A stretch of 64,000 nucleotides of DNA, from positions 806,001-870,000 of the forward strand of contig REGP01000001.1 in NCBI GenBank assembly GCA_004134995.1. Reading direction: 5' to 3'. Source of the DNA: Oxalobacteraceae bacterium CAVE-383. Lineage in GTDB: Bacteria; Pseudomonadota; Gammaproteobacteria; Burkholderiales; Burkholderiaceae_D. Shown in pieces: positions 15,213-31,685 of this stretch (positions are counted from its first letter, which is position 1; every line of letters starts with the position of its first letter). The position numbers and the translations under genes are program-made. The notes beneath the pieces are model-generated. The model ran no database searches, was not told where the DNA came from, and worked only from the letters and a program-made list of their open reading frames with translations.

Positions 15213-16298
15213 TCAGACCCAGCCCATTTCATACAGCTCGCGCTTGATGTAGGCGTAGTAGATCGGCGCGGCGACCACGCCGGGCAATCCGAACAGGGCT
15301 TCCGCGATCAGCATCGCCAGCAGCAATTCCCAGCTGCGCGCGTTGATCTGGAAACCGACGATGCGGGCATTCAGGAAGTATTCGAATTTGTGGATCAGGA
15401 CCAGGAAGACCAATGCCGCGATGGCCGCGTACAGCGAAACCGAAAGCGCCACGACCACGATCAGGGTATTCGAAATCAGGTTGCCGATGACCGGCAGCAG
15501 TCCTACAACGAAGGTCACCAGGATCAGGGTCTTGGCCAGCGGCAGATGTACGCCGGCCATGCGCATGATGACCAGCAGGAAAATCGCGGTGAACAGGGTA
15601 TTGAGCAGCGATACCTTGATCTGCCCGAATACCACGCGCGCGAAGGAATCCGCCAGCAGGGCGCAGCGCCGCAGCAGCGCGCCGGCCAGCGGCTGGCGCA
15701 ACGGCATCTGCTGCACGGCGGCCAGCGCCGCCATCGCGCCCAGCACCATGCCGATCAGGATATGCGCCGAAATCTGCGCCACCTCGCGGCCGGCCAGTTG
15801 CAGTTCGCCGCGATGCTCGCGCATCCAGTCGCCGGCCAAGGCGCGCAGATCGCCGGAATCCACCGGCAGATATTGCTGCAGCCACGACGGCAATTGGGTC
15901 CGGGCCATATCGATGGCGATGGTGAATTTGGTTTGCAATGCGGCGATGCGCATCGGATCGCGCAGGAATGCCACCGTGCCCAGAATGGCCGCCGTCAGCA
16001 GCGCGATGACCAGCGCCGACAGCAGCAGCACCGAAATCAGGTGCGCGCGCCGGTTGTCGAGGCGGCTATGGATCATCGGCCCCAGCGTGCGCACCAGCTG
16101 ATACACCAGCAGCCCGGCCATCAGCGCCGTCAGCAGATGCGCGGTCATGACCAGCCCCAGCAGCACGATCATCGCCAGCCAGGAACCGATAACGAAGGGC
16201 GATACCTTGGTGATTACCGGCCGCGGCGCGGGCAGATTGACGGGCTGGCCGGAGAGCGCATCCTGCGCCGGGTCGGGAATTTGATCGGATGGGTGCAT
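15213..16298 (-). CDS. AI-2E family transporter (PerM/TqsA-like)
   Basis: An inner-membrane protein of about 361 residues with seven or eight hydrophobic segments (SWLAMIVLLGLVMTAHLLTA, VLLLSALVIALL, and others) and the family region LPVIGNLISNTLIVV. Members export autoinducer-2 or act as Na+/H+ antiporters; the substrate here is not assignable. The start is uncertain: the frame is open to 16442, but the upstream part (PPDFHPAASD) looks non-coding. The ATG at 16298 (MHPSDQIPD) has only a weak ribosome binding site. Confidence 0.83.
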   Translation of the reverse strand: MHPSDQIPDPAQDALSGQPVNLPAPRPVITKVSPFVIGSWLAMIVLLGLVMTAHLLTALMAGLLVYQLVRTLGPMIHSRLDNRRAHLISVLLLSALVIALLTAAILGTVAFLRDPMRIAALQTKFTIAIDMARTQLPSWLQQYLPVDSGDLRALAGDWMREHRGELQLAGREVAQISAHILIGMVLGAMAALAAVQQMPLRQPLAGALLRRCALLADSFARVVFGQIKVSLLNTLFTAIFLLVIMRMAGVHLPLAKTLILVTFVVGLLPVIGNLISNTLIVVVALSVSLYAAIAALVFLVLIHKFEYFLNARIVGFQINARSWELLLAMLIAEALFGLPGVVAAPIYYAYIKRELYEMGWV

Positions 16299-16535
16299 CG
16301 TCGCTTCGATATCGGAGGCAGCCGGATGGAAATCCGGCGGCGGTGAGTGTAATTCGTGATGGCAATTCAGGCAGTTTAACAGCGCCGCCGGGGGAATGCC
16401 CGTGAATGTGAGCGCAGCCCCAAAAATGTAAGCTTTCGGCAAGACTGCTAATAAACCCCCGTTTGCATCGTTTTTTACCCTTTCAATGGGGGCGGCGCTG
16501 ACGTAAGATCGAAGTTTGCTTCAATAAGGTGAACA

Positions 16536-18098
16536 ATGCACGACCGCCAACAGCGTACCGCCACACTTGACCCGGCCGGCCAGTCAGACTGGCGTGAACT
16601 CAGGGAGCAGGGGCATCGTATGCTGGATGACATGTTCGATTATCTGGAAGGCCTGGGCGGCAAGCCGCAGGGTCCGGTCTGGCAGCCGATTCCGGCGTCG
16701 GTGCGGCAGCAGTTCCGCGAGGCCTTGCCGCGCCAGGCCGGTTCGCTGGCGCAGACCCACCAGACCTTCATGCAGAGCATCCTGCCGTACGCGGCCGGCA
16801 ATGCGCATCCGGGCTTCATGGGCTGGGTGCAGGGCGGCGGCACGCCGGTCGGCATGCTGGCCGAAATGCTGGCGGCCGGCCTCAACGCCAACGTCGGCGG
16901 CCGCGACCAGATTCCCCTCGATGTGGAACGCCAGATCACCCACTGGATGCGCGAACTGTTCGGCTTTCCGTCCGAGGCCAGCGGCATCTTCGTCACCGGC
17001 GCTTCAACCGCCAATCTGATCGGCGTGCTGGTGGCGCGGCGCCGCATGCTCGGCGCCGAAGTCCGCAGCCACGGGGTGCAGAACGCCTTGCCGCGCCTGA
17101 CCGCGTATACCTCGACCGCCGCGCACGGCTGCGTCAAGCAGGCCATGGACGTGGCCGGCCTCGGCGAAGACATGCTGCGCCGCATTCCCATCAATCCCGA
17201 CGGCACCATCCATCTGCCCAGCCTGAACGCGCATATCGCCGCCGACCGCGCCGCCGGGCTGCAGCCGTTCGCCGTGATCGGCAATGCCGGCACGGTCGAT
17301 ATGGGCGCCATCGACGACTTGACCGCGCTGGCCGATATCGCGCAGCGCGAGCAGCTTTTCTTTCATATCGACGGCGCATTCGGCGCCATGGCGATGCTGG
17401 CGCCGGATCTTGCGCCGCGCCTGGCGGGCATCGAGCGCGCCGATTCGATCGCCTTCGATTTCCACAAATGGACGCAGGTCCAGTACGACGCCGGTTTCAT
17501 TCTGGTGCGCGACGGCGCATTGCATCTGGACACCTTCGCGGCCCAGGAAAAAACCTACCTGGAACGCGCCGAGCGCGGCATGGCGGCCGGCTCGCCCTGG
17601 CCCTGCGATTACGGTCCGGAACTGTCGCGCGGATTCCGCGCCTTGAAAACCTGGTTCACGTTCAAGGTCTACGGCGCCGAAAAGCTGGGGCGGATGATCA
17701 GCCATACCTGCGCGCTGGCGCGGTATCTGCAGCAACGCGTGGAAGCCGAGCCGGCGCTCGAACTGCTGGCGCCGGCCTCGCTGAACATCGTCTGTTTCCG
17801 GCTGCGGCCGCCGGCGCAGGCGAGCGGGATGCCGGCGCAGGCCACCGCCGATACCGATACCGACGAAATCAACCGCCGGCTGCTGGTGGCGATACAGGAG
17901 TCCGGCATCGCCGCGCCTTCCTCCACCAGGATCAACGGCCACCTGACGATCCGCGCCGCCATATTCAATCACCGCAGCACGCAAGACAATATCGACGCCA
18001 TGCTCGACGCGGCGCTGCGTTTCGGCAGCGCCTTGTCTGTTGCGCCATCCGCCGCTCAATCCGCCGCTCAATCCGCTTCTCCATCCGAAAGCAAATGA
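16536..18098 (+). CDS. PLP-dependent group II decarboxylase (DDC family)
   Basis: A 520-residue fold-type I enzyme. PLP-binding Lys311 lies in DFHKW, Asp279 in HIDGAFG pairs with the pyridine N, and His197 stacks on the ring. The pattern is that of aromatic-L-amino-acid/tyrosine or diaminobutyrate-type decarboxylases; the substrate is not decided by sequence. The C-terminal ~15 residues are Ser/Ala repeats. An AAGGTG ribosome binding site precedes the ATG at 16536. It is the first gene of a three-gene unit; the next ATG lies 1 nt after its stop. A role in making an amine building block is inferred from the ligase next door. Confidence 0.86.
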   Translation: MHDRQQRTATLDPAGQSDWRELREQGHRMLDDMFDYLEGLGGKPQGPVWQPIPASVRQQFREALPRQAGSLAQTHQTFMQSILPYAAGNAHPGFMGWVQGGGTPVGMLAEMLAAGLNANVGGRDQIPLDVERQITHWMRELFGFPSEASGIFVTGASTANLIGVLVARRRMLGAEVRSHGVQNALPRLTAYTSTAAHGCVKQAMDVAGLGEDMLRRIPINPDGTIHLPSLNAHIAADRAAGLQPFAVIGNAGTVDMGAIDDLTALADIAQREQLFFHIDGAFGAMAMLAPDLAPRLAGIERADSIAFDFHKWTQVQYDAGFILVRDGALHLDTFAAQEKTYLERAERGMAAGSPWPCDYGPELSRGFRALKTWFTFKVYGAEKLGRMISHTCALARYLQQRVEAEPALELLAPASLNIVCFRLRPPAQASGMPAQATADTDTDEINRRLLVAIQESGIAAPSSTRINGHLTIRAAIFNHRSTQDNIDAMLDAALRFGSALSVAPSAAQSAAQSASPSESK

Positions 18099-18099
18099 T

Positions 18100-19392
18100 A
18101 TGACCAACCAGACAGGCGCTTCCGCAACTGCCGCCGCAACGACTGCCGTTTCTTTCGCTGCGCCGGTATTCGTCCCGGATTGCGCCCATCAGATCGGCAT
18201 TGCCGCACTGCTGCAGGCAGCCTATATGGGCGCCGATCTGAAGCCGCTCGGAACGCAGCTGATCGCGCATCTCGGCGAGAATCCCGACAATGCGAACGCC
18301 ATGATGGATCTGTCGATCATTCTGCAATTATTGGGCAACGACGATTCCGCCATCGCCACGCAGGCCGAAGCGATCCGCATGCAACAGTTATACCGCTTGC
18401 CGACCGCGCGCGGCGGCGACGTCAAGCTGCGCCTGCTGGCGATCATGACCGCCGGCGATTTCATGGCCAACACGCCGCTGGAATTCATGCTCGGCAATTC
18501 CGATGTGGCGCTGGATATTCTCTACATTTCGGCGGACCGGCCGCTGCCGGCCGCGGCGGAATTGCCGCCGCACGACGTGCTGTTCATCGCGGTGGGCGAA
18601 TCCGATGAAAACCGTCCGGTGCTGCGCAGCCTGGCCGGCTTCGCCAAAAGCTGGAAAGGGCCGCTGGTCAACCAGCCGGAAAAATGCATGCAGCTTTCGC
18701 GCGACCGGGTTGCGATTCTGCTGCAGTCGCAGCCGGGCGTTTGCATGCCGGTGACGGTCCGCGCCGAACGCGCGACGATGATGCAGATCGCCGCCGGTTC
18801 CCGCAACGCGGCCGATCTGCTGGGCGACGGCGATTTTCCGCTGATCGTGCGGCCGGTCGGTTCGCACGCCGGCAAGGGACTGGAAAAAATCGAACGGTTC
18901 GACGCGCTGGCGGCCTATCTGCAGCAGCATGGCGACGATGCCTTTTACATTTCGCGTTTCGTCGATTACCGCAGCGCCGACAGCCAGTTCCGCAAATACC
19001 GCATCGCGCTGATCGAGGGCAAGCCCTATCTGTGCCATATGGCGATTTCGGAAAACTGGATGATCCATTATCTCAACGCCGGCATGGCCGAAAGCGCGGC
19101 CAAGCGCGCCGAGGAGGCCGCCGTCATGGCGCGCTTCGACCAGGATTTCGCGGTGCGCCACCGCGCCGCCTTCGAACTGATCCAGCAACGTTTCGGACTC
19201 GATTACGTGGCCCTGGATTGCAGCGAAACCGCCGACGGCGAACTGCTGATCTTCGAAATCGATACCAGCATGATCGTGCATGCGATCGATCCGGTCGATG
19301 TTTTCCCCTATAAGCAACCGCAGATGCGCAAAGTGTTCGATGCCTTCCGCGCGCTGCTGATGCGCGCGGGCGGGCGCCTGCATGCCCTCTGA
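18100..19392 (+). CDS. TPR-like N-terminus fused to RimK-type ATP-grasp ligase
   Basis: A protein of 430 residues. Residues ~50-95 resemble a tetratricopeptide repeat (NPDNANAMMDLSIILQLLG). Residues ~110-190 form a Rossmann-like pre-ATP-grasp lobe. The ATP-grasp core follows, with RPVGSHAGKGL at 251-261 and the Mg2+-binding LLIFEIDTS at 382-390. ATP-grasp enzymes of this kind join a carboxylate (acyl phosphate) to an amine or thiol. Start ATG 18100 lies 1 nt after the decarboxylase stop, and the 3' end overlaps the next gene by 11 nt, so translation is coupled. Product unknown; amide-bond formation with the amine from the upstream decarboxylase is an inference. Confidence 0.75.
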   Translation: MTNQTGASATAAATTAVSFAAPVFVPDCAHQIGIAALLQAAYMGADLKPLGTQLIAHLGENPDNANAMMDLSIILQLLGNDDSAIATQAEAIRMQQLYRLPTARGGDVKLRLLAIMTAGDFMANTPLEFMLGNSDVALDILYISADRPLPAAAELPPHDVLFIAVGESDENRPVLRSLAGFAKSWKGPLVNQPEKCMQLSRDRVAILLQSQPGVCMPVTVRAERATMMQIAAGSRNAADLLGDGDFPLIVRPVGSHAGKGLEKIERFDALAAYLQQHGDDAFYISRFVDYRSADSQFRKYRIALIEGKPYLCHMAISENWMIHYLNAGMAESAAKRAEEAAVMARFDQDFAVRHRAAFELIQQRFGLDYVALDCSETADGELLIFEIDTSMIVHAIDPVDVFPYKQPQMRKVFDAFRALLMRAGGRLHAL

Positions 19393-20947
19393 CATGCCGC
19401 CTGACTTGCAATCGGCCGCGGCTGTGACGGCGCTGCCGCCGACCGCGTCCCTGCTGGTGCTGGGCGGCGATCAGCGCATCGCCATCCAGCCCGGTTCGCA
19501 AGTCAACAAATACGGCTGCCAGCCGTTTCCCGCGGCCGACCGGATTGCCTTCGGCTCATCGACGGCCTCGCAGATTTCGGCCCAGGCGTTCGACGCCGCG
19601 GACCGTCTGCGCACCCGTATTGCAGGCGCGCTGGCCGACGCCCCGGCCGCCACGGTTTATCGCGCCGAATTGATGCGTCTGCGCGGCGAATTGCTGGATA
19701 TCTGCGGCCTGGCGCCGCCGGTCACATCCGAGGATGCCGCGCCCGACGTCATTTTCGCGGCCTCCGGCACCGATGCCCATCTGCTGGCCTCGCATCTGAC
19801 GGCAGCGCAGGCGCAGGGATCGCAGCGTTCCTTGCGGGTCATCATGGTTAACCCCGAGGAAAGCGGCAGCGGCGTGTCGACCGCCCTGAGCGGCCGCAGT
19901 TTCAGCGCCTATAACGCGCTGGGCGATTGCGGCCCGCACGCCGATGCCAGACATGAAGTCACGCACGTCGCGATCCGCGATCCCGGCGGCGCGCCGCGCT
20001 CCCCGCAATCGGTGGCCGACGATGTCGCCGCCCAGAGCGATGCGGCGCTGCGCGGCGGCAGCGACGTCCTGTTGGTATTGATCGATGTCTCGAAAACCGG
20101 CTGCGTTGCGCCCGAGCCCGTATTTGCGCTGCAATTGCAGCAGCGCGCAGCGGGCCGTGTGCACATCCTGGTGGACGCCTGCCAGTTCCGTATCGAAACG
20201 GCTACCTTGCGCGCTTATCTTGCGCAGGGCTTCATGGTTGCGGTCACCGGTTCCAAGTTTATCGGCGGCCCGTCGTTTTCGGCGGCATTGCTGATTCCGC
20301 CGGCGCTGGCGGCGCGGATGCGGCCGGCCGGCGCGCCACCGCAATTGGAGCGCCATTCCGCGCTGGAAGAATGGCCCGCCGCCTGGCATGCCGAACGGAC
20401 GCTGAGCTCATCGGCCAATCCCGGCCTGCTGTTGCGCTGGGAAGCCGCGCTGCACGAATTGAAAGCATTCAAGGCGCTGCCCGGCGCCGCCGTCCGGAAA
20501 TGCCTGCTGCGCTTCAACGCCGCGGTGCAGGCGCGCCTGCAATCGGACCCGCACTTCGAAGCGCTGCCGGCGCCGGCAATGCCGGGCCGCGCCGCCGGCC
20601 TGGCGCCGGAATGGGACGACCTGGCGTCGATACATCCTTTTACCCTGTATCGTCCACAGGCGCATGGAAGCGAATCGCGCCAGCCCCTGGATACCGCGCA
20701 AGTAGCGCACGTATACCGCCAATTGCAGCAGCAGCGGAACGGCGACGGTTTTATCTACTCGGTCGGCCAGCCCGTGGTTTGCGGCCGGCGCGACGGCGTT
20801 GAATACAGCGTCTTGCGTCTATGCATCGGTGCGGGAATGGTAGTGCAGGCCTGCGGCGACCCGAGCGGCGCCGCAGGCGATGCGCTGATCGCGCATGCGA
20901 TGGCATGCCTGGATGCAATCGCAGGCCTTATTTCAACGACCGCGTAG
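19382..20947 (+). CDS. Putative PLP-dependent class V aminotransferase-like protein
   Basis: A 521-residue protein I do not recognise at family level. It has fold-type I PLP features: SGTDAH at 128-133 (phosphate-binding region), VDACQFR with Asp265 and Gln268, and VTGSKFIGGP with a likely Schiff-base Lys292. The spacing Asp-27-Lys is typical of class V/SufS-like enzymes. The last 90 residues, from QPVVCGRRDGVEYSVLRLCIG onward, look like a small C-terminal lobe. It overlaps the ATP-grasp gene by 11 nt and ends the unit. It could be a lyase, desulfurase or aminotransferase; the name is a fold assignment only. Confidence 0.65.
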   Translation: MPSDMPPDLQSAAAVTALPPTASLLVLGGDQRIAIQPGSQVNKYGCQPFPAADRIAFGSSTASQISAQAFDAADRLRTRIAGALADAPAATVYRAELMRLRGELLDICGLAPPVTSEDAAPDVIFAASGTDAHLLASHLTAAQAQGSQRSLRVIMVNPEESGSGVSTALSGRSFSAYNALGDCGPHADARHEVTHVAIRDPGGAPRSPQSVADDVAAQSDAALRGGSDVLLVLIDVSKTGCVAPEPVFALQLQQRAAGRVHILVDACQFRIETATLRAYLAQGFMVAVTGSKFIGGPSFSAALLIPPALAARMRPAGAPPQLERHSALEEWPAAWHAERTLSSSANPGLLLRWEAALHELKAFKALPGAAVRKCLLRFNAAVQARLQSDPHFEALPAPAMPGRAAGLAPEWDDLASIHPFTLYRPQAHGSESRQPLDTAQVAHVYRQLQQQRNGDGFIYSVGQPVVCGRRDGVEYSVLRLCIGAGMVVQACGDPSGAAGDALIAHAMACLDAIAGLISTTA

Positions 20948-21124: not shown

Positions 21125-21874
21125 TCAACGGCAATCATGATCCAGCCAGACTTCCGCATTGCCGCGTTCCCCGCGCTCGAAATTGACCGGGCTGTCGATC
21201 AGGTAAAAACCTTTGTCGCCGTTATCAAAATACGCCCCCGTCAGCAGCAATGACTGCGCGCCCATGGCGCTGGCCGCGAAAGGGCTGATCGCCGCCGCCA
21301 GTTTGAACGGATTATTTTCCCCCAGCGTGGCGCCCGCCAGACGCATGATCCGGTATTCATGGCCATCCAGCATCAGCGGCTGCCAGCGGCCGGGCGCATC
21401 GGATTGATGCGCGCGCAGCAGTTGCGGCAGGTCGGCGCGGATGCAATCGATATGGATATGCAGTTGCAACTGGCTGCGCGCGGCGGCCGAATTGATCTCC
21501 AGGCCGATTCTGTCGCGCGCCAGCCGGCGGCCCAGCGCCTGGCCCACCAGACGCCGCTGCTCCCAGGCATAGGCCCAGTAATTCGGCGCATCCGGCGCCA
21601 GCAGCTCAGGGCTTTCGATGCCGGTCAGGCGCTGCGTCGGAATCAGCAGGAACTGTCCGGCGCCGACAATATCCTTCAGCATGATGAACCCGCGCGGCAG
21701 ATCCGCCGCCCGGCATGGCGCCGGATTGCCGTGCGCGCGCATGTTCGGCACGCATTCGCCGTTGACGATTTCCCACAGCTTGTCCGGATTGGCGGCAAGC
21801 GATGCTTGCGGGCACAGCAACGCCGCGGCGGCGAAGCCGAGCAATAGGGCGCACCGCGCAACGATAATATTCAT
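21125..21874 (-). CDS. cdh: CDP-diacylglycerol pyrophosphatase
   Basis: A 249-residue protein that hydrolyses CDP-diacylglycerol to CMP and phosphatidate at the membrane. It starts with a signal or anchor (ARCALLLGFAAAALL, ASLAA near 28) and carries the HIT-like catalytic motif LQLHIHIDC with His139 and His141. Length and the CVPNMRAHGNPAPC region fit the Cdh family. The ATG at 21874 is chosen for the signal peptide; the open frame to 22036 has no such feature. Monocistronic; its 3' end faces the hairpin element. Confidence 0.85.
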   Translation of the reverse strand: MNIIVARCALLLGFAAAALLCPQASLAANPDKLWEIVNGECVPNMRAHGNPAPCRAADLPRGFIMLKDIVGAGQFLLIPTQRLTGIESPELLAPDAPNYWAYAWEQRRLVGQALGRRLARDRIGLEINSAAARSQLQLHIHIDCIRADLPQLLRAHQSDAPGRWQPLMLDGHEYRIMRLAGATLGENNPFKLAAAISPFAASAMGAQSLLLTGAYFDNGDKGFYLIDSPVNFERGERGNAEVWLDHDCR

Positions 21875-22123
21875 GAGCCGATGGAATTGCGGATGATTTA
21901 CAGGTGAAAACGCAGGCGAAATACAGCCGGCATCGAGAGAGGGAACCAGCCTAGTGTAGCCCGGAATATAGCCGCCGATTATGTCCGCAATATGACTTTT
22001 GCCGCTTGTCGGAAATTTGCGAAGCGGCGCGTTCAAAGCTTGTGAAAAAAGCTACACTCCAGAAATATTTCAATAAAGTGAGATGCGTTCCACCCGCGAA
22101 CAGCATGTCCGCCAGGGGTAATT

Positions 22124-25093
22124 TTGCTTAAGATCGATCCATCGAAAAAGCTGCCGGTCATCAGACTGCCTGCCATGTCGCTGCAGATGGTATTGTCGAT
22201 CCTGCTGTTCGGCGTGGTGCTGATCGTCGGCAGCGTATTGACGATCCTGAACTATGAACGCGGCCGCGACATGGCCAATAGCGCGTCGACCGTGCTGTTC
22301 GAACACATCGAGAGCGAAATCGCCTTGCAGTTGAGCGGCATGTATACCCCGATCTCGCAATTGGTCGATCTGATGATCGGCCAGCCCCTGGTAAGGGACA
22401 GGAATTTGCAGGCGCGCCTGCTGCATCTGCCTTCGCTGGTAGAGGCCATGCAGCATAGCCCGGCGCTGTCGGCGGTCTACATCGGCTACGCCAACGGCGA
22501 TTTCTTTCAATTGCGCCGCCTCAAGCCGGGCATCCCCACGATTCTCGACATGACAGTGCCGCCCGGCGCCGTGTATCTGGTGCAAAGCGTCAACCGCACG
22601 GCCGGCGCCGGCCATCCCTGGGAAGGCGTTTTCCTGTTCCTGTCGCGCGACCTGCAGGTGCTCGATACCCAGAGCCTGCCCGGCTACGCTTTCGATCCGC
22701 GCCGCCGCGAATGGTACCGGCAGGCGCTGGACTCGGCCAGCCAGGTGCAGACGCCGCCCTATATCTTCTTCAGCACGTCGGAACTGGGAATCAGCATCGC
22801 CCGGCGCAGCGCCGATCAGCGCGCCGTGGTGGGCGCCGATATCTCGCTGGGCGATCTCTCGGACATGCTGCACAGGCAAAGCATATCGCCTTCGGCGGAG
22901 CTGGCGCTGACCGACGGCGATGCCGCCGTGATGGCATACCGGAAGCCCGAAATGATGGGGAAATCGCGCGACGGCCAAGGCCGCATGCGCATGACCATGC
23001 TGCCGGAATTGGGCGGCCGGCAATTCGCGGCGCTGGCTGAAAAAATCCGGGCGCGCCAGTTCAGCAAGGCCTTCGAAACAGAAATCGACGATCGGATCTG
23101 GTCGGGCCGGATCGTGCCGGTGCGGCTCGGCGATGCGCCGTTTTACCTGGCCATTTCGGTGCCCGAAGACGAGCTGCTGGCCGATGCGCGCCGGATGCTC
23201 AATAACGGCCTGCTGGTCACGCTGGTGCTGCTGCTCGGCGCCATACCGGTGGCGGCGGTGGTGGCATGGCGGCTGGGGCTGCCGTTGCGCCGGCTGGCGC
23301 GCGAAGCCAAGGCGATGCAGGATTTCGATTTCAGCAGTCCGGGCCAGGGCAAGTCGCGTATCCACGAAATCGAACAACTGATGTGTTCGATGAACGAAAC
23401 CCGCCTGACCATCCAGCGCTTCACCGAAATTTCGGTCGCCCTGGCCGCCGAGCAGAATTTCGACCGGCTGCTCGAACGCATCGTCACCGAGACCATGTCG
23501 ATCGCGCACGCCGACGCCGGCATTCTGTATCTGCTGGACGACGAGCGCAAAGTGGCGCGGCCGCAATTGGTGAAATGGACCGATCAGGCAGGCCAGGCGC
23601 AGGCGCAGAATCCGCCGGAAGCCGTGGACATTCACATCCCCGGCCACGCGGAACATTTGCTGTGCCGGACCTTGCGAACCGGCGTGCGCCAATTCGTGAA
23701 TATGGATCCGCAGGCGATGCGCAGGGCCGCCTGGCTGGGCGATATTGCCACCCATCTGCCGGAACAGCCGCACATCCTGGCCACCATTCCGCTGAAAAAC
23801 CGGCGCGAAGAAACCATAGGCGCCATTTTATGGATAGGCCCGATCAAGGACGGCGGCGCGCAAAGCCATCTGTTCGCCTTCCTGGAGGCATTGTCCGGCG
23901 CGGCCGCCATTTCGATTGAAAACAAGCAACTGATCAAGGCCCAGGTGGACTTGCTCGAAGGGATGATCCAGGTCATCGCCGGCGCCATTGACGCAAAATC
24001 GCCCTATACCGGCGGACACTGCCAGCGCGTGCCGGAATTGACCAAGATGCTGGCGCAGGCCGCCTGCGACGACGATCGCGGACCGTTCCGCGATTTCAGC
24101 CTGACCGAGGATCAATGGAAAGAAGTGCATGTCGCCAGCTGGCTGCATGACTGCGGCAAGATGACCACGCCCGAATTCGTGGTCGACAAGGCCACCAAGC
24201 TGGAAACCATCTACGACCGCCTGCACGAAATCCGCATGCGCTTCGAGATCATCAAGCGCGACCGGCGCATCAGCGCCCTGGAGTCGGTCGCCGACGGCGC
24301 CGAAGCCGACGCCGTACGGGCCGAACTGGCGCGGCAACTGGCGCAACTGGACGACGACTTCGCTTTCATCGCATCCTGCAACGAAGGATCGGAACGCATG
24401 GCGCCGGAGAGCATGCAGCGCGTGCGGGAGATCGCCGGGCATACCTGGTGGCGCACGCTGGACGACAGGATCGGCATTGCATGGGAGGAACGCGAGCGCA
24501 AGAACCGGCTGCCGGCATCCCCGCTGCCGGCACAGGAGCGCTTGCTCGACGACCGCGTCGATCACCGCATCGAACGCCGCGCGCAGGATTGCCTGGAGCC
24601 CGATAATGTCTGGGGCTTCAAGGTGGAGATGCCGGCTCTGCTCTACAACCGCGGCGAAATCTACAATCTCTGCATCGAGCGCGGCACGCTGACGCCGGAA
24701 GAACGCTACAAGGTCAATGAACACATCATCCAGACCATCATCATGCTGAACCGGCTGCCGTTCCCGCGCCATCTGGCGAATGTGCCGGAAATCGCCGGCG
24801 GCCATCATGAAAAAATGAACGGCAACGGCTATCCGAAACGGCTCAAGCGCGAAGAGATGAGTCCGGTGGCGCGGATGATGGCGGTGGCCGACATCTTCGA
24901 GGCGCTCACCGCCGCCGACCGGCCTTACAAAAAGGGCAAGAAACTGTCCGAAGCCATCGGCATCATGATCCGGATGAAAAACGAAGGCCACATCGACCCG
25001 GATGTATTCAATCTGTTTTTCAACAGCGGCATTTATCTGACGTATGCGAAGAAATACATGGATCCGGAGTTGATCGATACGATTGCGGATTAA
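22124..25093 (+). CDS. Cache-GAF-HD-GYP c-di-GMP phosphodiesterase
   Basis: A 989-residue sensor enzyme. TM1 is near 19-40, followed by a dCACHE-type periplasmic domain to ~355 (WYRQALDSASQVQTPPYI), TM2, a HAMP-like linker, a GAF domain at ~435-610, and an HD-GYP domain that should cleave c-di-GMP to pGpG/GMP. Metal/catalytic motifs are TGGHCQRV (~628), HDCGK (~675), GGHHEK (~893) and NGNGYP (~900). The spacing between HD and GYP (~225 residues) is well above the usual, so the domain carries a long insertion. The start is TTG after CAGGGGTAA. Its last 56 bp are repeated at 31994-32049, marking the insertion site of a mini-island. Confidence 0.88.
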   Translation: MLKIDPSKKLPVIRLPAMSLQMVLSILLFGVVLIVGSVLTILNYERGRDMANSASTVLFEHIESEIALQLSGMYTPISQLVDLMIGQPLVRDRNLQARLLHLPSLVEAMQHSPALSAVYIGYANGDFFQLRRLKPGIPTILDMTVPPGAVYLVQSVNRTAGAGHPWEGVFLFLSRDLQVLDTQSLPGYAFDPRRREWYRQALDSASQVQTPPYIFFSTSELGISIARRSADQRAVVGADISLGDLSDMLHRQSISPSAELALTDGDAAVMAYRKPEMMGKSRDGQGRMRMTMLPELGGRQFAALAEKIRARQFSKAFETEIDDRIWSGRIVPVRLGDAPFYLAISVPEDELLADARRMLNNGLLVTLVLLLGAIPVAAVVAWRLGLPLRRLAREAKAMQDFDFSSPGQGKSRIHEIEQLMCSMNETRLTIQRFTEISVALAAEQNFDRLLERIVTETMSIAHADAGILYLLDDERKVARPQLVKWTDQAGQAQAQNPPEAVDIHIPGHAEHLLCRTLRTGVRQFVNMDPQAMRRAAWLGDIATHLPEQPHILATIPLKNRREETIGAILWIGPIKDGGAQSHLFAFLEALSGAAAISIENKQLIKAQVDLLEGMIQVIAGAIDAKSPYTGGHCQRVPELTKMLAQAACDDDRGPFRDFSLTEDQWKEVHVASWLHDCGKMTTPEFVVDKATKLETIYDRLHEIRMRFEIIKRDRRISALESVADGAEADAVRAELARQLAQLDDDFAFIASCNEGSERMAPESMQRVREIAGHTWWRTLDDRIGIAWEERERKNRLPASPLPAQERLLDDRVDHRIERRAQDCLEPDNVWGFKVEMPALLYNRGEIYNLCIERGTLTPEERYKVNEHIIQTIIMLNRLPFPRHLANVPEIAGGHHEKMNGNGYPKRLKREEMSPVARMMAVADIFEALTAADRPYKKGKKLSEAIGIMIRMKNEGHIDPDVFNLFFNSGIYLTYAKKYMDPELIDTIAD
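25037..25092 (+). repeat. Left direct repeat (att-like), inside HD-GYP 3' end
   Basis: This 56-bp copy forms the last codons of the intact HD-GYP gene. It matches 31994-32049 with three substitutions. Confidence 0.85.
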
Positions 25094-25181: not shown

Positions 25182-27101
25182 CTAGTGTGTAAACGTAGTT
25201 AGCGCAGCATCGGCGACCGCGCAATACCGAGCGAGTGTTGGTTCGATTTGTATCAGATAGCGAAGCTTGGAAAGGAGCCGGCCTGCTGTATCTTTGGCTG
25301 AGGCTTCGAAAGCAATCTCGGTTATCCACCCACCGAAAAACTTTGCCCAATCCTCAATTTTTTCGAAGGAAGCTGCAGCGATCATTGCAATGCGCAACTC
25401 ATTATCTAGATCGCCTACAAGGACTCTCCGACGACGCAGGACGCGTGCAAGAACGCGTAGTGCATCGGCTAGATCAGTACCGCGTGTCACAGCAGCGACT
25501 ATAGCGAGACCGCTAATTAGGCTAAACGCCGTATTTTCGTCATCCGCTTTCTCAACCGAAAATTTGACCCGATGGAGGGCAGATGCTGCAAGACTAGACT
25601 GCCCCTCAGGTAACTCAAATAGTAATGCGGTGTTGGCTAAAACGGCAAAGGAACTTGCTTCGAGGCGTTCTGCTTCGAGCGCTGCTTTTACAACATTAAG
25701 AGCATTGTCCGGAATTAGCGGTCTGGGCGTAAGTTCTCCTTCTAGTGGGCCTGGAAGATTTGAAAATGGCCAACGAACTGCGTTCTCAAGCTTTGAGGTG
25801 GGTCCAAGAAGAAGCGTCTGCAAAGATTCAAGTTGAATCTTTGTAGCATTCCGATTGACAGCGTTTGCGATACGACCAATGAACTCTGCTCGGAGTTGTT
25901 CGGCACTCACAAAGTCGGGGAGCCACCGCGGTTCTCTTCGGAGGTCAATCAGTCCTTGCAAAAAAAACATATACCCTAATCCGGAGTTTTGAGCCCATTC
26001 TGTAACGCTCATCGGATCAATGTCCGAACCATTAATTGCTCGAATAACGATGGATGCTTGCGCAATTGCAGCTTGCCGTCGATAAAAAGGAGGAGATTTT
26101 CCAAGTATGCGTCTTCTCGATAATTCTGACGCCACCATAATGATCATCGAACTTAACAGAGCAAAGATGCTGCTATCGCTCTCTGGAGAGTCCGCGATAA
26201 AACCTTCAATAATTTGCTCAACAAACGGAGCGAGTTCAGGATGAGTGTCTAGGTGAGAAATCGCAATCTCTACAGCACCGACTTGTGAAATTGGGTCGCC
26301 ATTCTGGGCCAGCCATTGGTAAGTTTGAACTAGCTCCCCGCGGTCAATATTTTCGATTCGAACATTTTCCGTGATTGTTCCCACCGAACACGTTAGTAAC
26401 GAATACAGAAAACCTTCTGTGCCACGCCGACTCTGGAGATCGGCAATCAATGGCTTGGCACCGACCTCTATATACTCTGCGACTGTCGTGGTCGAGCCAA
26501 GGCTGCCAATGAGTTGTTCATAGTAATGAAGTTGATGTGGCACTAGTGTTGTCGGATCAGCACGCCCATGCTCCATGCTCCTCTGAAGCGTGAGATAAAT
26601 GCTCGCAGGAGTTTGCTCAATATCTGTCATCAGTTCCGCAAATTCCTCGTCACTGAGAGGAGCGCCATTCAACCGTTGCAACCAATTTCGGTAAGTAGTA
26701 CCTTCGAAATTTATTTCGTTTGCAGTTTTCTCAAACCAAGCAGTTCTGGTGGCCACGTCTTCTGCCAGAGCGGAATGATCCATGAGTGAATAAACTACAT
26801 CTCCGGAGCGAATAGAGAACGCCAGCACACCATCTTTTAACTGTACGAGCATATCCCACGTGGTGCCATCCTTGTCTTTAATTGGGACTGCAATTCCCTG
26901 AATACTAATGGATCTTCGTATACCGCTATAAAGCTGATCACGGCGGAACGAGGATCCACCCGCTATCAGTTTCACGCTAGTGATAGTTGCAATATCCCAT
27001 TGCTTAAGAAAGGTTTTATCTTCCAGAAGGGTATGGCGGACACTAGGTGGCAAAAAATCAAGAGCTATGTCAACAAATGACTGAGTAATCTTGCTATTCA
27101 T
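25182..27101 (-). CDS. Uncharacterised 639-residue island protein
   Basis: I do not recognise a family. The protein appears soluble, with no signal or membrane segment. The N-terminal ~150 residues alternate strands and polar loops (QGIAVPIKDKDGTTWDMLVQL), while ~150-639 is rich in amphipathic helices, compatible with a helical-repeat scaffold. The ATG at 27101 has GAGG 6 nt upstream, lying across the stop of the preceding gene (10-nt gap), so the two genes are translationally coupled. The 2:1 stoichiometric logic of effector and scaffold is possible but unproven. Base and codon use match its island partner, not the chromosome. Confidence 0.7.
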   Translation of the reverse strand: MNSKITQSFVDIALDFLPPSVRHTLLEDKTFLKQWDIATITSVKLIAGGSSFRRDQLYSGIRRSISIQGIAVPIKDKDGTTWDMLVQLKDGVLAFSIRSGDVVYSLMDHSALAEDVATRTAWFEKTANEINFEGTTYRNWLQRLNGAPLSDEEFAELMTDIEQTPASIYLTLQRSMEHGRADPTTLVPHQLHYYEQLIGSLGSTTTVAEYIEVGAKPLIADLQSRRGTEGFLYSLLTCSVGTITENVRIENIDRGELVQTYQWLAQNGDPISQVGAVEIAISHLDTHPELAPFVEQIIEGFIADSPESDSSIFALLSSMIIMVASELSRRRILGKSPPFYRRQAAIAQASIVIRAINGSDIDPMSVTEWAQNSGLGYMFFLQGLIDLRREPRWLPDFVSAEQLRAEFIGRIANAVNRNATKIQLESLQTLLLGPTSKLENAVRWPFSNLPGPLEGELTPRPLIPDNALNVVKAALEAERLEASSFAVLANTALLFELPEGQSSLAASALHRVKFSVEKADDENTAFSLISGLAIVAAVTRGTDLADALRVLARVLRRRRVLVGDLDNELRIAMIAAASFEKIEDWAKFFGGWITEIAFEASAKDTAGRLLSKLRYLIQIEPTLARYCAVADAALTTFTH

Positions 27102-27110
27102 TAGCAACCT

Positions 27111-30100
27111 CTAGCGCTTTAGAAGAGTTTCTATAACACGCGAAATCAGAGCTTTCGCGTGTTCGATCAAAAATGCATAGGTCTCGCTGTCTTCCTCCTC
27201 GATCGACTCAAGAAAACGTGAATCAAGCCAGTTCCAATAAGCTATTTTTATGGGTTCGGGCTGAATTATAGGTAGCGTCATTAAGAGTGAAAGCCAATTC
27301 CGATACCGTGTCATCAACTGCTGCGCATCTTCGTCTAAGCGGTGCGCCCAGCCTTTAACATCTCCCAAAGCAAGAAGCCAATCCGATCTTGCAATAGCCG
27401 TGTGTTCGTCAAAACCAATCGTCCACTGGGCTTTCAGAGTTGCTAGACAAGCACCGAGCATATTATTTAGCCAGGTGATTTCTTTAGGAGATTGGAGAAC
27501 TTCGCTCATACGGATGCGTAAGATGTTCTCTCTTATTGCCTTCAGCTCCGCTGTTTCTATAAGTTTGCCATCGGCGATGGAAGCAACGGAAATAAGTGCT
27601 GATAGCTCTACATGGTCGAGCGGCATTAAGACGAAATTGGCGCGGCGCAATGCCGTCCTTGCTTCTTGTTTGTGTGGTGCCGAGATGGCACCGCGGCGTT
27701 GCAGAGTATCCAAAATATCTAGCGTCGTCATTAATGGCCTAGCTACAGTTCCTGAGGAAATTGATGCATGCTGGTTGATGTAGCGGTCATCACTGACCCC
27801 CGCTTCTGCCTCATCCATGAGCTTCAGCATAGCAATGGTTGGATGGGTCTTCATATCTCTCATCCCACGTCCATCGGCGACACGAATCATCTTGCCAAGT
27901 CGGACTTTTCCGCTCTCTAGACCTCCCTTCACGCAGATGCGTATCCGTTCGACGATGTTGACGGCATCGGTACCCTTTGCATCGTATGAAATGAGAGCGT
28001 CTGCTTCTTCCATCTCGCCGCGCGACACAATCGCGGTGATATCAGCGCGATGCAGTTTTTGTAAAAGTCCCAGAAAGCCAAAATGTGAGACGGTAAGATC
28101 ATCCAGATAAAGGACAGCTCCATCAACAATTTCAAGCTTAGATGGCCAAGGCCTTTCACGCAATGTGAGTGCTGCGCGCGCTTCTTCGGCTTCCTGCTTC
28201 GTCAACAGTGCTTTTTTTTCAAGCTTGTCGACGACGTCAAAACTGCTGCAGAGATATGATTTATATGCACTTAGATCAGCTTCTTCCTTCATAAAAGTGC
28301 TGGCTTTATAAATGGGGCCTCCGCGAACAACTAATCGCTGGCTCATACTATCTTCATTTTTATTGGACGCTTCGGCTATCAACGCAGCCAATTGTTCGCC
28401 AACCTCGCTAACCAGACTTTCCGGCGGTATTACGCCGCCATCGAAAACATGCAGATGTCTTTCGGTAATCATCTGTCTGAGGTCTCTTGCGACCTTTACT
28501 TGACTGGGCTGATGAAATAATATTCGTGCTTTTTCTTCAAGAAGCCAACTAAGAGTACCGTGAGGAATCACGATTCTCCCGAACGTCGATATATAGAGAT
28601 CGAGAAGACCCAAAAACGCTGCAGTAATAAGAGCAGTCAAGTCCATGGCAATTATCTGCGGATCAACAGTATGCATTTCGCGGACGCCGCTAAAGCCATA
28701 GACCATTGGCCGTCTTCGAACATCCGGTTCGCTCATATTACTGAGTGCCGGCAGTAGAAAAAGACTGAGAAGAGAACGATTTAAAACGTTGCCTGCTGTA
28801 AAAATGGGGATGTCACCTTTGGCTAGCAAGTTCCAAGTCTCAGCCTCGCGCTTCTCCCAACCTGGATTTTGTTCGATCAACTCCTCGATTGACACCCTCT
28901 TAATCGGGCCATCACCGACTTTCTCCGAGAGTTCCGCGGCTCTTTCGAGCCATTGATTGACCTCCGCGTTACTTTCCCAGCCGGCAGCCGAAGCTGCGTG
29001 GTAGCAACTGGCAAGAATTGTAGGATTATCGGGTGCCGATTGCGCCGCTTTAATTACGAGATCTTTTCCTCGTACTGCCCCAATGTGCTGGGCTATTTGA
29101 CCAGCTCGAATTAGCTCAATAGGTGCCCGTTCAGCACGGGCGCTCCATTCGCTTTCCACAAATCCTTGTAATGACTCCCAGTCACCAGAAGCGATAGCAA
29201 GCCTGATCTGCAATTCCCGCGCATCGGGTGAATCGTTTATCTGACGCAGAGTATTTAACGACAAGCGCGCATCTTCAAGATCACCTCGTTCGAACAATGT
29301 CTCTGTATATAGCAGGCGAAGCTCATTGTATCGCCCCGTTAGGATTGGGTATGCCGTAAATACCTCAATTACATCATCGAGGCGTTCCTGGTTATATAGC
29401 GAAATTACATAGCGCCGTGCATCGGCGATGTCGCCAGTCTGGTCCAGCAAAAGCTTTCCGTACGCGGCAGATTTCTCCCAGTTGCGGGCTTCGCCATATG
29501 CAGACACAACGAGGCGCAAATCTATGATCGATTTGCTTTGTTCATACGTCGCAATTCGCTCAACGATAGGATCACTTCCTGCGACTTCTCCTAAAAGGCG
29601 GCGAAGCCTATTCGTTTCGTCGTCGGTTAGGCCGCGGTCTACAGCTTCCTCTAAGCGTGTTTGCGCTTGGGCCTCTTGACTAGAGGTGGCGAGCATTTCA
29701 ATCTCGAAGAAATAAATACCTTTCCATTCCAGATGTTTCAGAAGCTGCGCACGGTGCTGATGAATATAGGAGGCTGCAGTCGCAGGATTCTTTTGCGCGA
29801 ATGCGAGGGCGAACCGGGCTACCGCCGCATCGGAAGAAGTTCCGCCACTCAGAGCTGTTTGGCGATCAACCTCCTTTTCAACCTGCAACAGATCAATCTC
29901 AACATTGAATTGAATTGCCAAATTCAGGCGCCGTAAGAGTATCGCTGGATCTTTGATACTTATGGCCAATTCCTGTCGAGCTTCATCCCCTGTTTCGGGA
30001 TCCATGAGTTGTAGCCAAAGTCTTTTGTCGTCGGCGTTACCAGCTATGCCTAACATACCGAAGGTATATGCAACTGAGCGAAAGCGCTCATATAACTTAG

Positions 30101-31685
30101 CTGCTATACGTCGATAATCAAGACTTTCGGGCTCACTGCGTAGGGGGAAGTTCGATGCGCCTAAAGGTAAATACTGCATTAAGAACATACGCATTTCATC
30201 CGGAACAACCTGCATAAGATATGCATCTGCAGCTGCGTAGAGAATAGCTGGCGAACGTTCGAAATCCTCCTCGGCTATGGATTTTGCTGTATCAAACGCG
30301 CTAGCCCATTCGCCATTTTCTAGTGCGCTTTTGAGATAGAAAAATTTAGCATCGCTATCAATATCTGCAATTGATAGTTCAGACTGCCGAAGCCAATCAT
30401 CAGCAGCTTTAAATCCTTTAATCCTAAGGACACTAATATAGGCGGCACCACGTCCTATTGGTGTATTGACCATGGCCAATTCTCCTAATGCCGCCTCAAT
30501 TTCATCCCGGCCAACCATGATCAATCCATGGGCAACCGTGGTCAGTTCAACATCTGGAATGGTTATCGCGTCAAGTATGAGTTGCGCTTCTTCCGGTGTA
30601 TCCACAGATAAAAATCTTGCGCACCAGACGAAGGCTTCGTCTTTCGCTTTGGTACTCGCTCGCGAAAGACTGCCAATCTGCAGATTGGAAATGAGCCTCT
30701 GCACCTCTTCTTTCGTTTTGAAAGTGGCAAGTAGGCGACATTTACGCACGCGTTCCAATTGCCGCATCACTTCAACATCGATAACGACTGCGTCTGCATT
30801 TGATGCAGACAGATGTCTTGTTATCTGCGTTAAATTTGCGATAGCCGCATTCTGCGCTTGGCTATTTGCCGTCAGTTTTTCAAGTTCGACGGTGCTTCTT
30901 TCGATGGCTTCCACAACCTGCGTCACTTGTGGAGGTTCGCCAAATGGGCTGCTAATGAAATGCTTTATATGAATATAAACGTCGGCATCTCGACTGCCAG
31001 GTTTGCAAATGGTGGTATGACTTTCATCAACGGTTATTGGAAGCTCAGGCAAACTGTCTGAACTTCCAGACCATACAATTTTCCCAATAACTTCGGGAAT
31101 AGAAAATCCCAAAATTTGTTCAGCTCGTCCTTCAACAAGGACTAGGTTTTCAATACCGTTGGTGCGGCAATACTGCCGGTACCAAAAATTAAGGTCTTTG
31201 AGTTGAGTACTTCCGAGGATTAAGTCTCGAGTAGCCGCCGAAGGGCGCATCAAAAGGGAGAGGGCTTTCCCAAAATTGGCGAGCAACGCCCCGCGATGTG
31301 GTGTACCGAGGAAGGCGACTCGTCTGATTCGCGAGAGAAAGTCCTCAGCTTTTCTACTCTGACCAGAATCACGCTCCGCATTGCGCAACAGTTGCTCAAC
31401 GACAAGGCCGCCCAAGCTATGTACAACAAAAATAATATTGCCTTTCTCAAGGCGAGGCTCGGCGAGTAGGCGGGCGAGAAGATTGTCCGCTCTATCAGAT
31501 AACGGTAGGCTATGCCCTTTCCAATTGGTTTTGGCAGCAGGATAGCCGACTAACCAAATCCCAATTCCAGGAATATCATCTGCTAGCCATTTTGGCCAAA
31601 GCACCGGTGGATTAGACCCTTCGACGGCCCAAGTCATTTCAAAATGTCCCGATAGGCCATGGACAAACACGACATGAGTTTTCAC
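27111..31685 (-). CDS. Alpha/beta-hydrolase, helical-repeat, PIN-like conflict protein
   Basis: A protein of 1524 residues as annotated. Residues 1-~245 form an alpha/beta-hydrolase: VFVHGLSGHF (oxyanion strand), VVHSLGGLV with nucleophile Ser in HSLGG, AFLGTPHRGA, and a likely catalytic His in DESHTTICKPGSRD. This version, with the HTTICKP-like ending, is the one found N-terminal in STAND/NACHT-type signalling proteins. Residues ~260-1000 are TPR-like helical repeats. At ~1020-1330 a PIN-nuclease-like region has IIAMDLTAL and LYLDDLTV acidic strands. The start is doubtful: an AAAGGAG stands 6 nt before an in-frame CTG at 31724, which would add 13 residues; GTG 31685 has no good ribosome binding site. 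The architecture recalls TPR-PIN conflict proteins; a lipase or nuclease effector triggered by infection is inferred. Confidence 0.68.
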   Translation of the reverse strand: MKTHVVFVHGLSGHFEMTWAVEGSNPPVLWPKWLADDIPGIGIWLVGYPAAKTNWKGHSLPLSDRADNLLARLLAEPRLEKGNIIFVVHSLGGLVVEQLLRNAERDSGQSRKAEDFLSRIRRVAFLGTPHRGALLANFGKALSLLMRPSAATRDLILGSTQLKDLNFWYRQYCRTNGIENLVLVEGRAEQILGFSIPEVIGKIVWSGSSDSLPELPITVDESHTTICKPGSRDADVYIHIKHFISSPFGEPPQVTQVVEAIERSTVELEKLTANSQAQNAAIANLTQITRHLSASNADAVVIDVEVMRQLERVRKCRLLATFKTKEEVQRLISNLQIGSLSRASTKAKDEAFVWCARFLSVDTPEEAQLILDAITIPDVELTTVAHGLIMVGRDEIEAALGELAMVNTPIGRGAAYISVLRIKGFKAADDWLRQSELSIADIDSDAKFFYLKSALENGEWASAFDTAKSIAEEDFERSPAILYAAADAYLMQVVPDEMRMFLMQYLPLGASNFPLRSEPESLDYRRIAAKLYERFRSVAYTFGMLGIAGNADDKRLWLQLMDPETGDEARQELAISIKDPAILLRRLNLAIQFNVEIDLLQVEKEVDRQTALSGGTSSDAAVARFALAFAQKNPATAASYIHQHRAQLLKHLEWKGIYFFEIEMLATSSQEAQAQTRLEEAVDRGLTDDETNRLRRLLGEVAGSDPIVERIATYEQSKSIIDLRLVVSAYGEARNWEKSAAYGKLLLDQTGDIADARRYVISLYNQERLDDVIEVFTAYPILTGRYNELRLLYTETLFERGDLEDARLSLNTLRQINDSPDARELQIRLAIASGDWESLQGFVESEWSARAERAPIELIRAGQIAQHIGAVRGKDLVIKAAQSAPDNPTILASCYHAASAAGWESNAEVNQWLERAAELSEKVGDGPIKRVSIEELIEQNPGWEKREAETWNLLAKGDIPIFTAGNVLNRSLLSLFLLPALSNMSEPDVRRRPMVYGFSGVREMHTVDPQIIAMDLTALITAAFLGLLDLYISTFGRIVIPHGTLSWLLEEKARILFHQPSQVKVARDLRQMITERHLHVFDGGVIPPESLVSEVGEQLAALIAEASNKNEDSMSQRLVVRGGPIYKASTFMKEEADLSAYKSYLCSSFDVVDKLEKKALLTKQEAEEARAALTLRERPWPSKLEIVDGAVLYLDDLTVSHFGFLGLLQKLHRADITAIVSRGEMEEADALISYDAKGTDAVNIVERIRICVKGGLESGKVRLGKMIRVADGRGMRDMKTHPTIAMLKLMDEAEAGVSDDRYINQHASISSGTVARPLMTTLDILDTLQRRGAISAPHKQEARTALRRANFVLMPLDHVELSALISVASIADGKLIETAELKAIRENILRIRMSEVLQSPKEITWLNNMLGACLATLKAQWTIGFDEHTAIARSDWLLALGDVKGWAHRLDEDAQQLMTRYRNWLSLLMTLPIIQPEPIKIAYWNWLDSRFLESIEEEDSETYAFLIEHAKALISRVIETLLKR

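Follow-up and report, generated by a model that had tools for sequence, protein, structure and literature searches.

Three described systems are close to the genes considered here. In methanofuran biosynthesis, MfnA is a pyridoxal 5'-phosphate (PLP)-dependent tyrosine decarboxylase, MfnD a tyramine:L-glutamate ligase, and MfnC a transaminase (PMC8141765); in fungi, E-64 clusters encode both a PLP decarboxylase and an ATP-grasp ligase (PMC12568646); and in Shewanella the ATP-grasp protein encoded by sfmE is required for full flagellin modification (PMC3765264), each as described in the accessible parts of these papers. Here, we analyze a three-gene cassette in 64,000 nucleotides of Oxalobacteraceae bacterium CAVE-383 (contig REGP01000001.1, positions 806,001 to 870,000; hereafter the window), consisting of a decarboxylase gene (A), a gene for a tetratricopeptide repeat (TPR) and ATP-grasp-like protein (B), and a gene for a protein resembling class V PLP enzymes (C). 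An earlier interpretation made from the letters and open reading frames alone, the sequence-only reading, held that no named pathway has such a trio; this does not stand as worded, given that the methanofuran and E-64 systems use comparable sets, as far as the accessible text of both reports goes. We propose that the cassette makes an amine and ligates it into an amide, most likely modifying the flagellar surface, and place the probability of this interpretation at about 45%. The cassette and its catalytic residues are conserved, and in relatives it is linked to flagellar genes.

Conservation of the unit extends far beyond the window genome. Within the family, gene C occurs in 55 of 392 genomes and gene B, paralogues included, in 94 of 392; gene A was found in 87 of 353 (threshold 1e-60). 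Across 350 genomes of the class, C is present in two: the window genome itself and G721, the only match outside the family. Among fetched loci that carry both A and B, C is also present in 46 of 65, so the prospect that the three genes are rarely neighbors elsewhere fails, and their co-occurrence is conserved. Gene order and tight spacing recur across genera, with an A-B gap of -20 to +172 nt in 57 of 58 pairs (own gene caller) and of exactly -4 in 15. The usual order is A-B-C; in six loci of genus group g40, C points away from A-B and is separated from A by flaG, and a Rhizobium tumorigenes plasmid features the order B-C-A.

The flagellar setting, like the alternative partner of B and the relatives of C at the end of biosynthetic operons described below, is seen only through relatives and was beyond the reach of the sequence-only reading. 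At least one of flaG, fliC, fliD, and fliS is present in the fetched stretch of 42 of 86 A loci and in 0 of 40 random 16-kb stretches from 20 same or related genomes, the loci not being independent. The 65 A+B loci were fetched before the flagellar link was noticed; flaG accompanies 28 of them (26 within 3 kb; six genera), and any of the four genes accompanies 31 (seven genera). The A loci added later, which bring the total to 86, were three that were picked, all genomes with an orthologue-level A but no B, and four others. Single cassette genes are found in the same surroundings. In all four g24 genomes that lack B, A occurs without B or C ahead of a same-strand fliC-flaG-fliD-fliS cluster, 373-417 nt from its fliC; in five g32 genomes (the L214-L218 set, B not found), A lies beside a lone flaG; C alone adjoins fliC, flaG, and fliD in G151 (L069); and in L109, B and a SerC-like gene are situated between flgK, fliD, fliC and flgL, fliS. 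In G721, from another family, fliD-flaG-fliC is followed by A-B-C. Pfam searches bear out the flagellar assignments of the L109 set, of three L220 genes (fliC, fliD, and fliS), and of flaG in both L214 and L209. Flagellin was detected in 71 of the 72 genomes with a cassette; the remaining genome is 65% complete.

The small gene beside many cassettes is flaG (PF03646), and its phylogenetic placement identifies it as a distinct paralogue. The 24 distinct cassette-linked FlaGs separate from 35 others with local support of 0.968-0.983 in four FastTree runs, on a tree built without seven duplicate short loci, rows identical in the last 85 residues, and the FlaGs of L211 and L214-L218. Two or more FlaG matches occur in 28 of 94 genomes with B versus 21 of 298 without it, and six of those 21 have A. 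The C-terminus of FlaG was also considered as a ligation tag and rejected: alanine ends 38 of 38 linked rows and likewise 29 of 31 comparison FlaGs. Two further observations concern flagellin regions. That of L109 also harbors a family 2 glycosyltransferase gene and a protein read as FliB-like, without Pfam support, and in the window genome the gene directly before flagellin encodes a TPR protein of 655 aa that weakly matches glycosyltransferase 9 (L210, 4731-6698), a candidate flagellin glycosyltransferase.

Gene A is identified by its sequence as a group II PLP decarboxylase. It passes the gathering score of PF00282 (E 2.8e-62; 211.1 bits versus 27), its closest solved structure is 4obu (E 1.4e-58), and R123, H197, D279, and K311 are invariant in the 24 aligned family members. 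It falls below every substrate-specific cut-off among the NCBIfam models for diaminobutyrate (DABA), tyrosine (MfnA and enterococcal), aspartate (PanP), and histidine decarboxylases, scoring 167.5 bits against the DABA model (cut-off 900) and 67.4 bits against the MfnA model TIGR03812 (cut-off 299.4).

For gene B, the profiles point to a ligase of divergent, ATP-grasp-like type whose start resembles TPRs. Taken singly, the B protein matches no Pfam ATP-grasp model up to E 0.1, and its match to rimK_fam (TIGR00768) is sub-threshold (E 0.0048; 16.3 bits versus a cut-off of 143.4). A profile of 37 family members finds the RimK-type structure 3vpd (E 7.2e-5) together with TPR structures, and PF13424 is matched by 12 of the 37 at a limit of E 1. 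R251, R301, E339, D373, and E386 are conserved in 37 of 37 members and position 388 is Asp or Asn in 35 of 37; we read D373, E386, and D/N388 as probable ATP-grasp metal ligands. The ATP-grasp assignment of the sequence-only reading is probable at fold level, from the family profile match to 3vpd; B itself stays under the curated family cut-offs. Elsewhere in the window genome (G000) are three further B-like TPR-ATP-grasp paralogues (L002, C3:880434; L003, C4:319393; L004, C7:270940), among them one with an extended TPR part (728 aa) and one near a cupin/JmjC gene. The R. tumorigenes B protein (L134, 11950-13662) carries about 140 additional C-terminal residues that have no Pfam match and look like a C39-type cysteine peptidase.

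Gene C is, at low confidence, a divergent fold type I PLP enzyme of an unnamed family with class V-type marks. It has no significant family or structure match by sequence in Pfam, NCBIfam, or the structure library. Aminotran_5 (PF00266) does not match the window protein and matches 3 of 32 family members below the gathering score (best E 0.059), and the sole Protein Data Bank profile match of the family is a desulfurase (E 0.29) over the VDACQ motif. S128, T130, D265, and Q268 are each conserved in 32 of 32 members and K292 in 31 of 32. In an hhalign comparison with SufS, D265, Q268, and K292 fall on equivalent residues at E 0.84, a value no better than that of a negative pair (0.64). The C profile gave nothing significant against SerC-like, SufS-like, IscS-like, or A alignments, for which the yardstick pair of SufS and SerC reached only E 0.0057. 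A structure model of C with a mean predicted local distance difference test (pLDDT) score of 44.8 fits class V enzymes and group II decarboxylases (Z about 10-11; root-mean-square deviation about 4; about 215 residues), and for this model Foldseek returned fold type I enzymes together with signal recognition particle GTPases. As far as sequence tells, the residues expected of a PLP pocket, including Lys292, are kept in the third protein, contrary to the prospect raised in the sequence-only reading that such a pocket might be lacking.

The partners of B vary. An HExxH-motif protein of roughly 310 aa occurs in 20 of the 65 A+B loci, mostly where C is absent; both proteins occur in 4 of 65 and neither in 3 of 65 (Fisher 5.7e-9, loci not independent). 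An alternative count with a 150-bit limit, three more loci, and L231 yields C in 45 of 69, the HExxH protein in 22 of 69, both in 4, and neither in 6, the last including cut or broken C genes. The HExxH protein matches Peptidase_Mx weakly (E 0.0081). Its weak match in PADLOC (E 0.0031) was the only one there, and PHROGs returned nothing. It is fused in frame with B in L104 and partly in L110. Where B relatives occur without A, their partner in L109, L110, L114, and Paraburkholderia FT54 is a class V enzyme of SerC-like type. Because C and the HExxH protein alternate and A-less B pairs with a SerC-like enzyme, B reads as a shared core with exchangeable partners. By locus, the pairing of a B-type gene with a SerC-like enzyme is recorded for L109, L110, L114, and L135. 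Separately, a metallo-beta-lactamase-fold gene adjoins the cassette in three g42 genomes (L059, L060, L063) and in R. tumorigenes (L134), a shared neighbor that hints at transfer between these lineages.

We propose the following mechanism. A would decarboxylate an amino acid to an amine; B, using ATP and an acyl-phosphate as other ATP-grasp ligases do, would join this or another amine to a carboxylate; and C would tailor the substrate or the product, a place taken in most C-less relatives by the HExxH protein, a putative zinc metallopeptidase. Synthesis would be cytoplasmic, and the TPR part of B might provide a docking surface. The product would most likely end up on the flagellum, modifying with an amide either flagellin, the flagellin glycan, or another flagellar protein, for example the FlaG paralogue of the cassette. 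The sequence of amine formation, ligation, and PLP tailoring put forward by the sequence-only reading is still the simplest account. We infer the reactions and their order, as well as the flagellar target and the validity of the scheme for the window genome, whose cassette is not beside flagellar genes. In its most far-reaching form, the scheme would constitute a new type of flagellar modification, in which an amine from a dedicated decarboxylase is attached as an amide by a TPR-guided ATP-grasp enzyme to flagellin, its glycan, or a dedicated FlaG paralogue serving as carrier and finished by C, as a new PLP enzyme family, or by the HExxH protein; we offer this version tentatively and consider it somewhat improbable.

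Several observations weigh against a flagellar role. In the window genus, linked loci number 0 of 10 (nine fetched plus the window), and in the window genome the trio (contig C3) is on a different contig from flaG and flagellin (C7). There is little linkage in genera g6 and g19, 44 of the 86 A loci have no flagellar gene in the stretch, and the figure of 42 of 86 does not stand for a rate across the family, as 11 genomes with a B orthologue (four g6, six g19, one g40) were left unfetched. Flagella are common in the family anyway (FlaG in 343 of 392 genomes). A scan upstream of A in 61 loci brought out no clear sigma-28-like promoter, the best candidates matching 8-10 of 13 bases and none being rarer than about 9% of shuffles; across the whole window, loose sigma-28 matches number 21 versus 9.2 expected, with none upstream of A. 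Linkage does not in itself show modification, because flagellar genes also encode regulators and chaperones. Finally, the structure models of B (pLDDT 41.7) and C (the mean of 44.8 given above), each from a two-row alignment, are both poor. Further counterevidence comes from rhizobia, where relatives of C in all three plasmids examined (S. medicae, R. leguminosarum, and R. jaguaris) directly follow nonribosomal peptide synthetase (NRPS) genes as the last gene of the operon; a phosphopantetheinyl transferase (PPTase) gene adjoins in two of the three, and no flagellar gene is listed there. This position favors a natural-product role for C. On rhizobial plasmids, the C-type gene of L133, L137, and L138 either overlaps the last NRPS gene or comes after it, and ParB-N-like, SagB-like, and PPTase genes are present in some.

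These NRPS-ending relatives speak for a cassette that makes a small diffusible amide, such as a signal, part of a siderophore, or an inhibitor, with A giving the amine, B ligating it, and C or the HExxH protein finishing the product; the flagellar neighborhood would then reflect shared regulation or chance insertion sites. The absence of flagellar linkage in the window genus and at about half of the A loci agrees with such a product, as does the decarboxylase and ATP-grasp ligase logic of the fungal E-64 clusters, as the accessible part of that report presents it (PMC12568646). However, no transporter or regulator is a constant neighbor of the cassette, and neither a dedicated FlaG paralogue nor the linkage of single A, B, and C genes to flagellin genes would be expected. 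We consider a diffusible amide unlikely, with real weight nonetheless.

RimK modifies ribosomal protein S6 and offers a model for another alternative, in which the protein that receives an amine or amino acid from B is not flagellin, the TPR part chooses the target, and the FlaG paralogue is either that target or a regulator. Such an activity would suit the meeting of the B family profile with both RimK-type 3vpd and TPR structures, the HExxH-B fusions (L104, partly L110), which fit protein processing, and a FlaG paralogue that forms its own clade and adjoins A also in L214-L218, for which no B was found. Yet A and FlaG occur without B in those five linked loci, so B is not the sole reason for FlaG there; the single FlaG match of the window genome sits in the flagellin region, and the C-terminal alanine of FlaG is general rather than cassette-specific. 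We regard this as quite improbable.

That A, B, and C belong to no common pathway, and owe their proximity to shared transfer and frequent insertion near flagellar genes, gains from the occurrence of each gene without the others, but the -4 overlap in 15 of 58 A-B pairs, the retention of several orders (A-B-C, B-C-A, and C divergent from A-B), and the near exclusivity of C and the HExxH protein (4 both and 3 neither, of 65) make it very unlikely. Least probable of all, and only barely credible, is a formyl-carrier or similar cofactor made in the manner of MfnA, MfnD, and MfnC: the enzyme types match those described for methanofuran in the accessible part of PMC8141765, but A reaches less than a quarter of the MfnA cut-off (67.4 of 299.4 bits), no other gene of such a pathway is a recurrent neighbor, and the flagellar linkage is left unexplained.

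The window genome is a 4.1-Mb draft of genus group g1, shared with genome G312. Open reading frame calls place all three genes on the + strand and with the spacing that the sequence-only reading had reported (Table 1). For B, an alternative TTG start at 18040, upstream of the ATG, would give 450 aa. The cassette is flanked on the A side by an AI-2E-family permease gene (15213-16442) and on the C side by a CDP-diacylglycerol pyrophosphatase gene (21125-22036); because both point leftward, the trio reads as a separate operon. Beyond this lie a 972-aa Cache/HAMP/GAF protein with a C-terminal HD_5 (HD-GYP-like) domain (22175-25093) and a stretch of low GC content (25182-31685; 0.46-0.56 versus about 0.63 around it). 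The latter contains a 1524-aa open reading frame with an alpha/beta hydrolase match at its start and HTH_upstream_double_PIN and PIN-TPR-GreABC models, and is possibly an acquired conflict system.

Table 1. Coordinates of the cassette genes, their junctions, and conserved stretches within the window.
Feature	Position	Strand	Basis
Gene A, group II PLP-dependent decarboxylase, 520 aa, ATG start	16536..18098	+	PF00282
Codon of presumed PLP lysine K311 of A (FHKW)	17466..17468	+	24/24; aligns with HKW of solved decarboxylases
A-B gap, 1 nt	18099..18099	+	
Gene B, TPR-like N-terminus and ATP-grasp-like ligase, 430 aa from ATG	18100..19392	+	Family profile
TPR-like stretch of B, residues 59-95	18274..18384	+	PF13424, E 0.0053, under gathering score
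ATP-grasp-like stretch of B, residues 184-391	18649..19272	+	TIGR00768 match range
B-C overlap, 11 nt	19382..19392	+	Identical overlap kept in the closest relative, L005
Gene C, unnamed class-V-like (fold type I) PLP-type protein, 521 aa, ATG start	19382..20947	+	Conserved residues; low-confidence model
D265-A-C-Q268 motif of C	20174..20185	+	Aligns with VDGAQ of SufS-type enzymes (non-significant hhalign)
Codon of presumed PLP lysine K292 of C	20255..20257	+	31/32

If the flagellar proposal is true, the flagella of many Burkholderiales and some other bacteria are decorated with an amide-type group by enzymes that have so far not been tied to flagella, with relevance to motility, phage attack, and flagellin recognition by plant and animal hosts. 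The cassette also provides a common, testable setting for three unnamed protein groups (the TPR-ATP-grasp protein B, the class-V-like protein C, and the HExxH partner) and for a FlaG paralogue, and the same C family is also seen on NRPS operons in rhizobia. Literature searches of open-licence papers returned no description of this gene set, and the claim of its absence rests on those searches.

None of the compared systems (sfm, methanofuran, and E-64) has this gene set. At the level of single proteins, C shares Asp, Gln, Lys, and SGT positions with class V PLP enzymes such as cysteine desulfurase, selenocysteine lyase, and EgtE/Egt2, but has no significant sequence relation to them and about 190 more C-terminal residues that remain uncovered. 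B has profile similarity to RimK-type ligases (TIGR00768, 3vpd) over its ATP-grasp part, although its score is under the family cut-off and its N-terminus is TPR-like. The fungal E-64 clusters likewise employ a dedicated PLP decarboxylase and an ATP-grasp ligase and make amides without an NRPS (PMC12568646); they encode an epoxidase and an amide bond synthetase and, in the accessible text, no class-V-like protein or flagellar context. Methanofuran or methylofuran synthesis likewise combines a PLP decarboxylase with a transaminase and a ligase coupling the amine to glutamate (MfnA, MfnC, and MfnD; PMC8141765), from which the cassette differs in that A is far under the MfnA cut-off, B has a TPR-like start, and there are no further mfn-type neighbors. 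The Shewanella oneidensis sfmABCDE genes differ in composition, the others being described in the accessible part of the report as a PseI-like protein, a thiamine diphosphate enzyme, a reductase, and a methyltransferase, with no decarboxylase or class-V-like protein among them. The likeness of SfmE (412 aa) to B is by description only: SfmE is an ATP-grasp protein read as a carboxylate-amine ligase, it is encoded near flagellar functions, and its loss lowers flagellin mass (PMC3765264).

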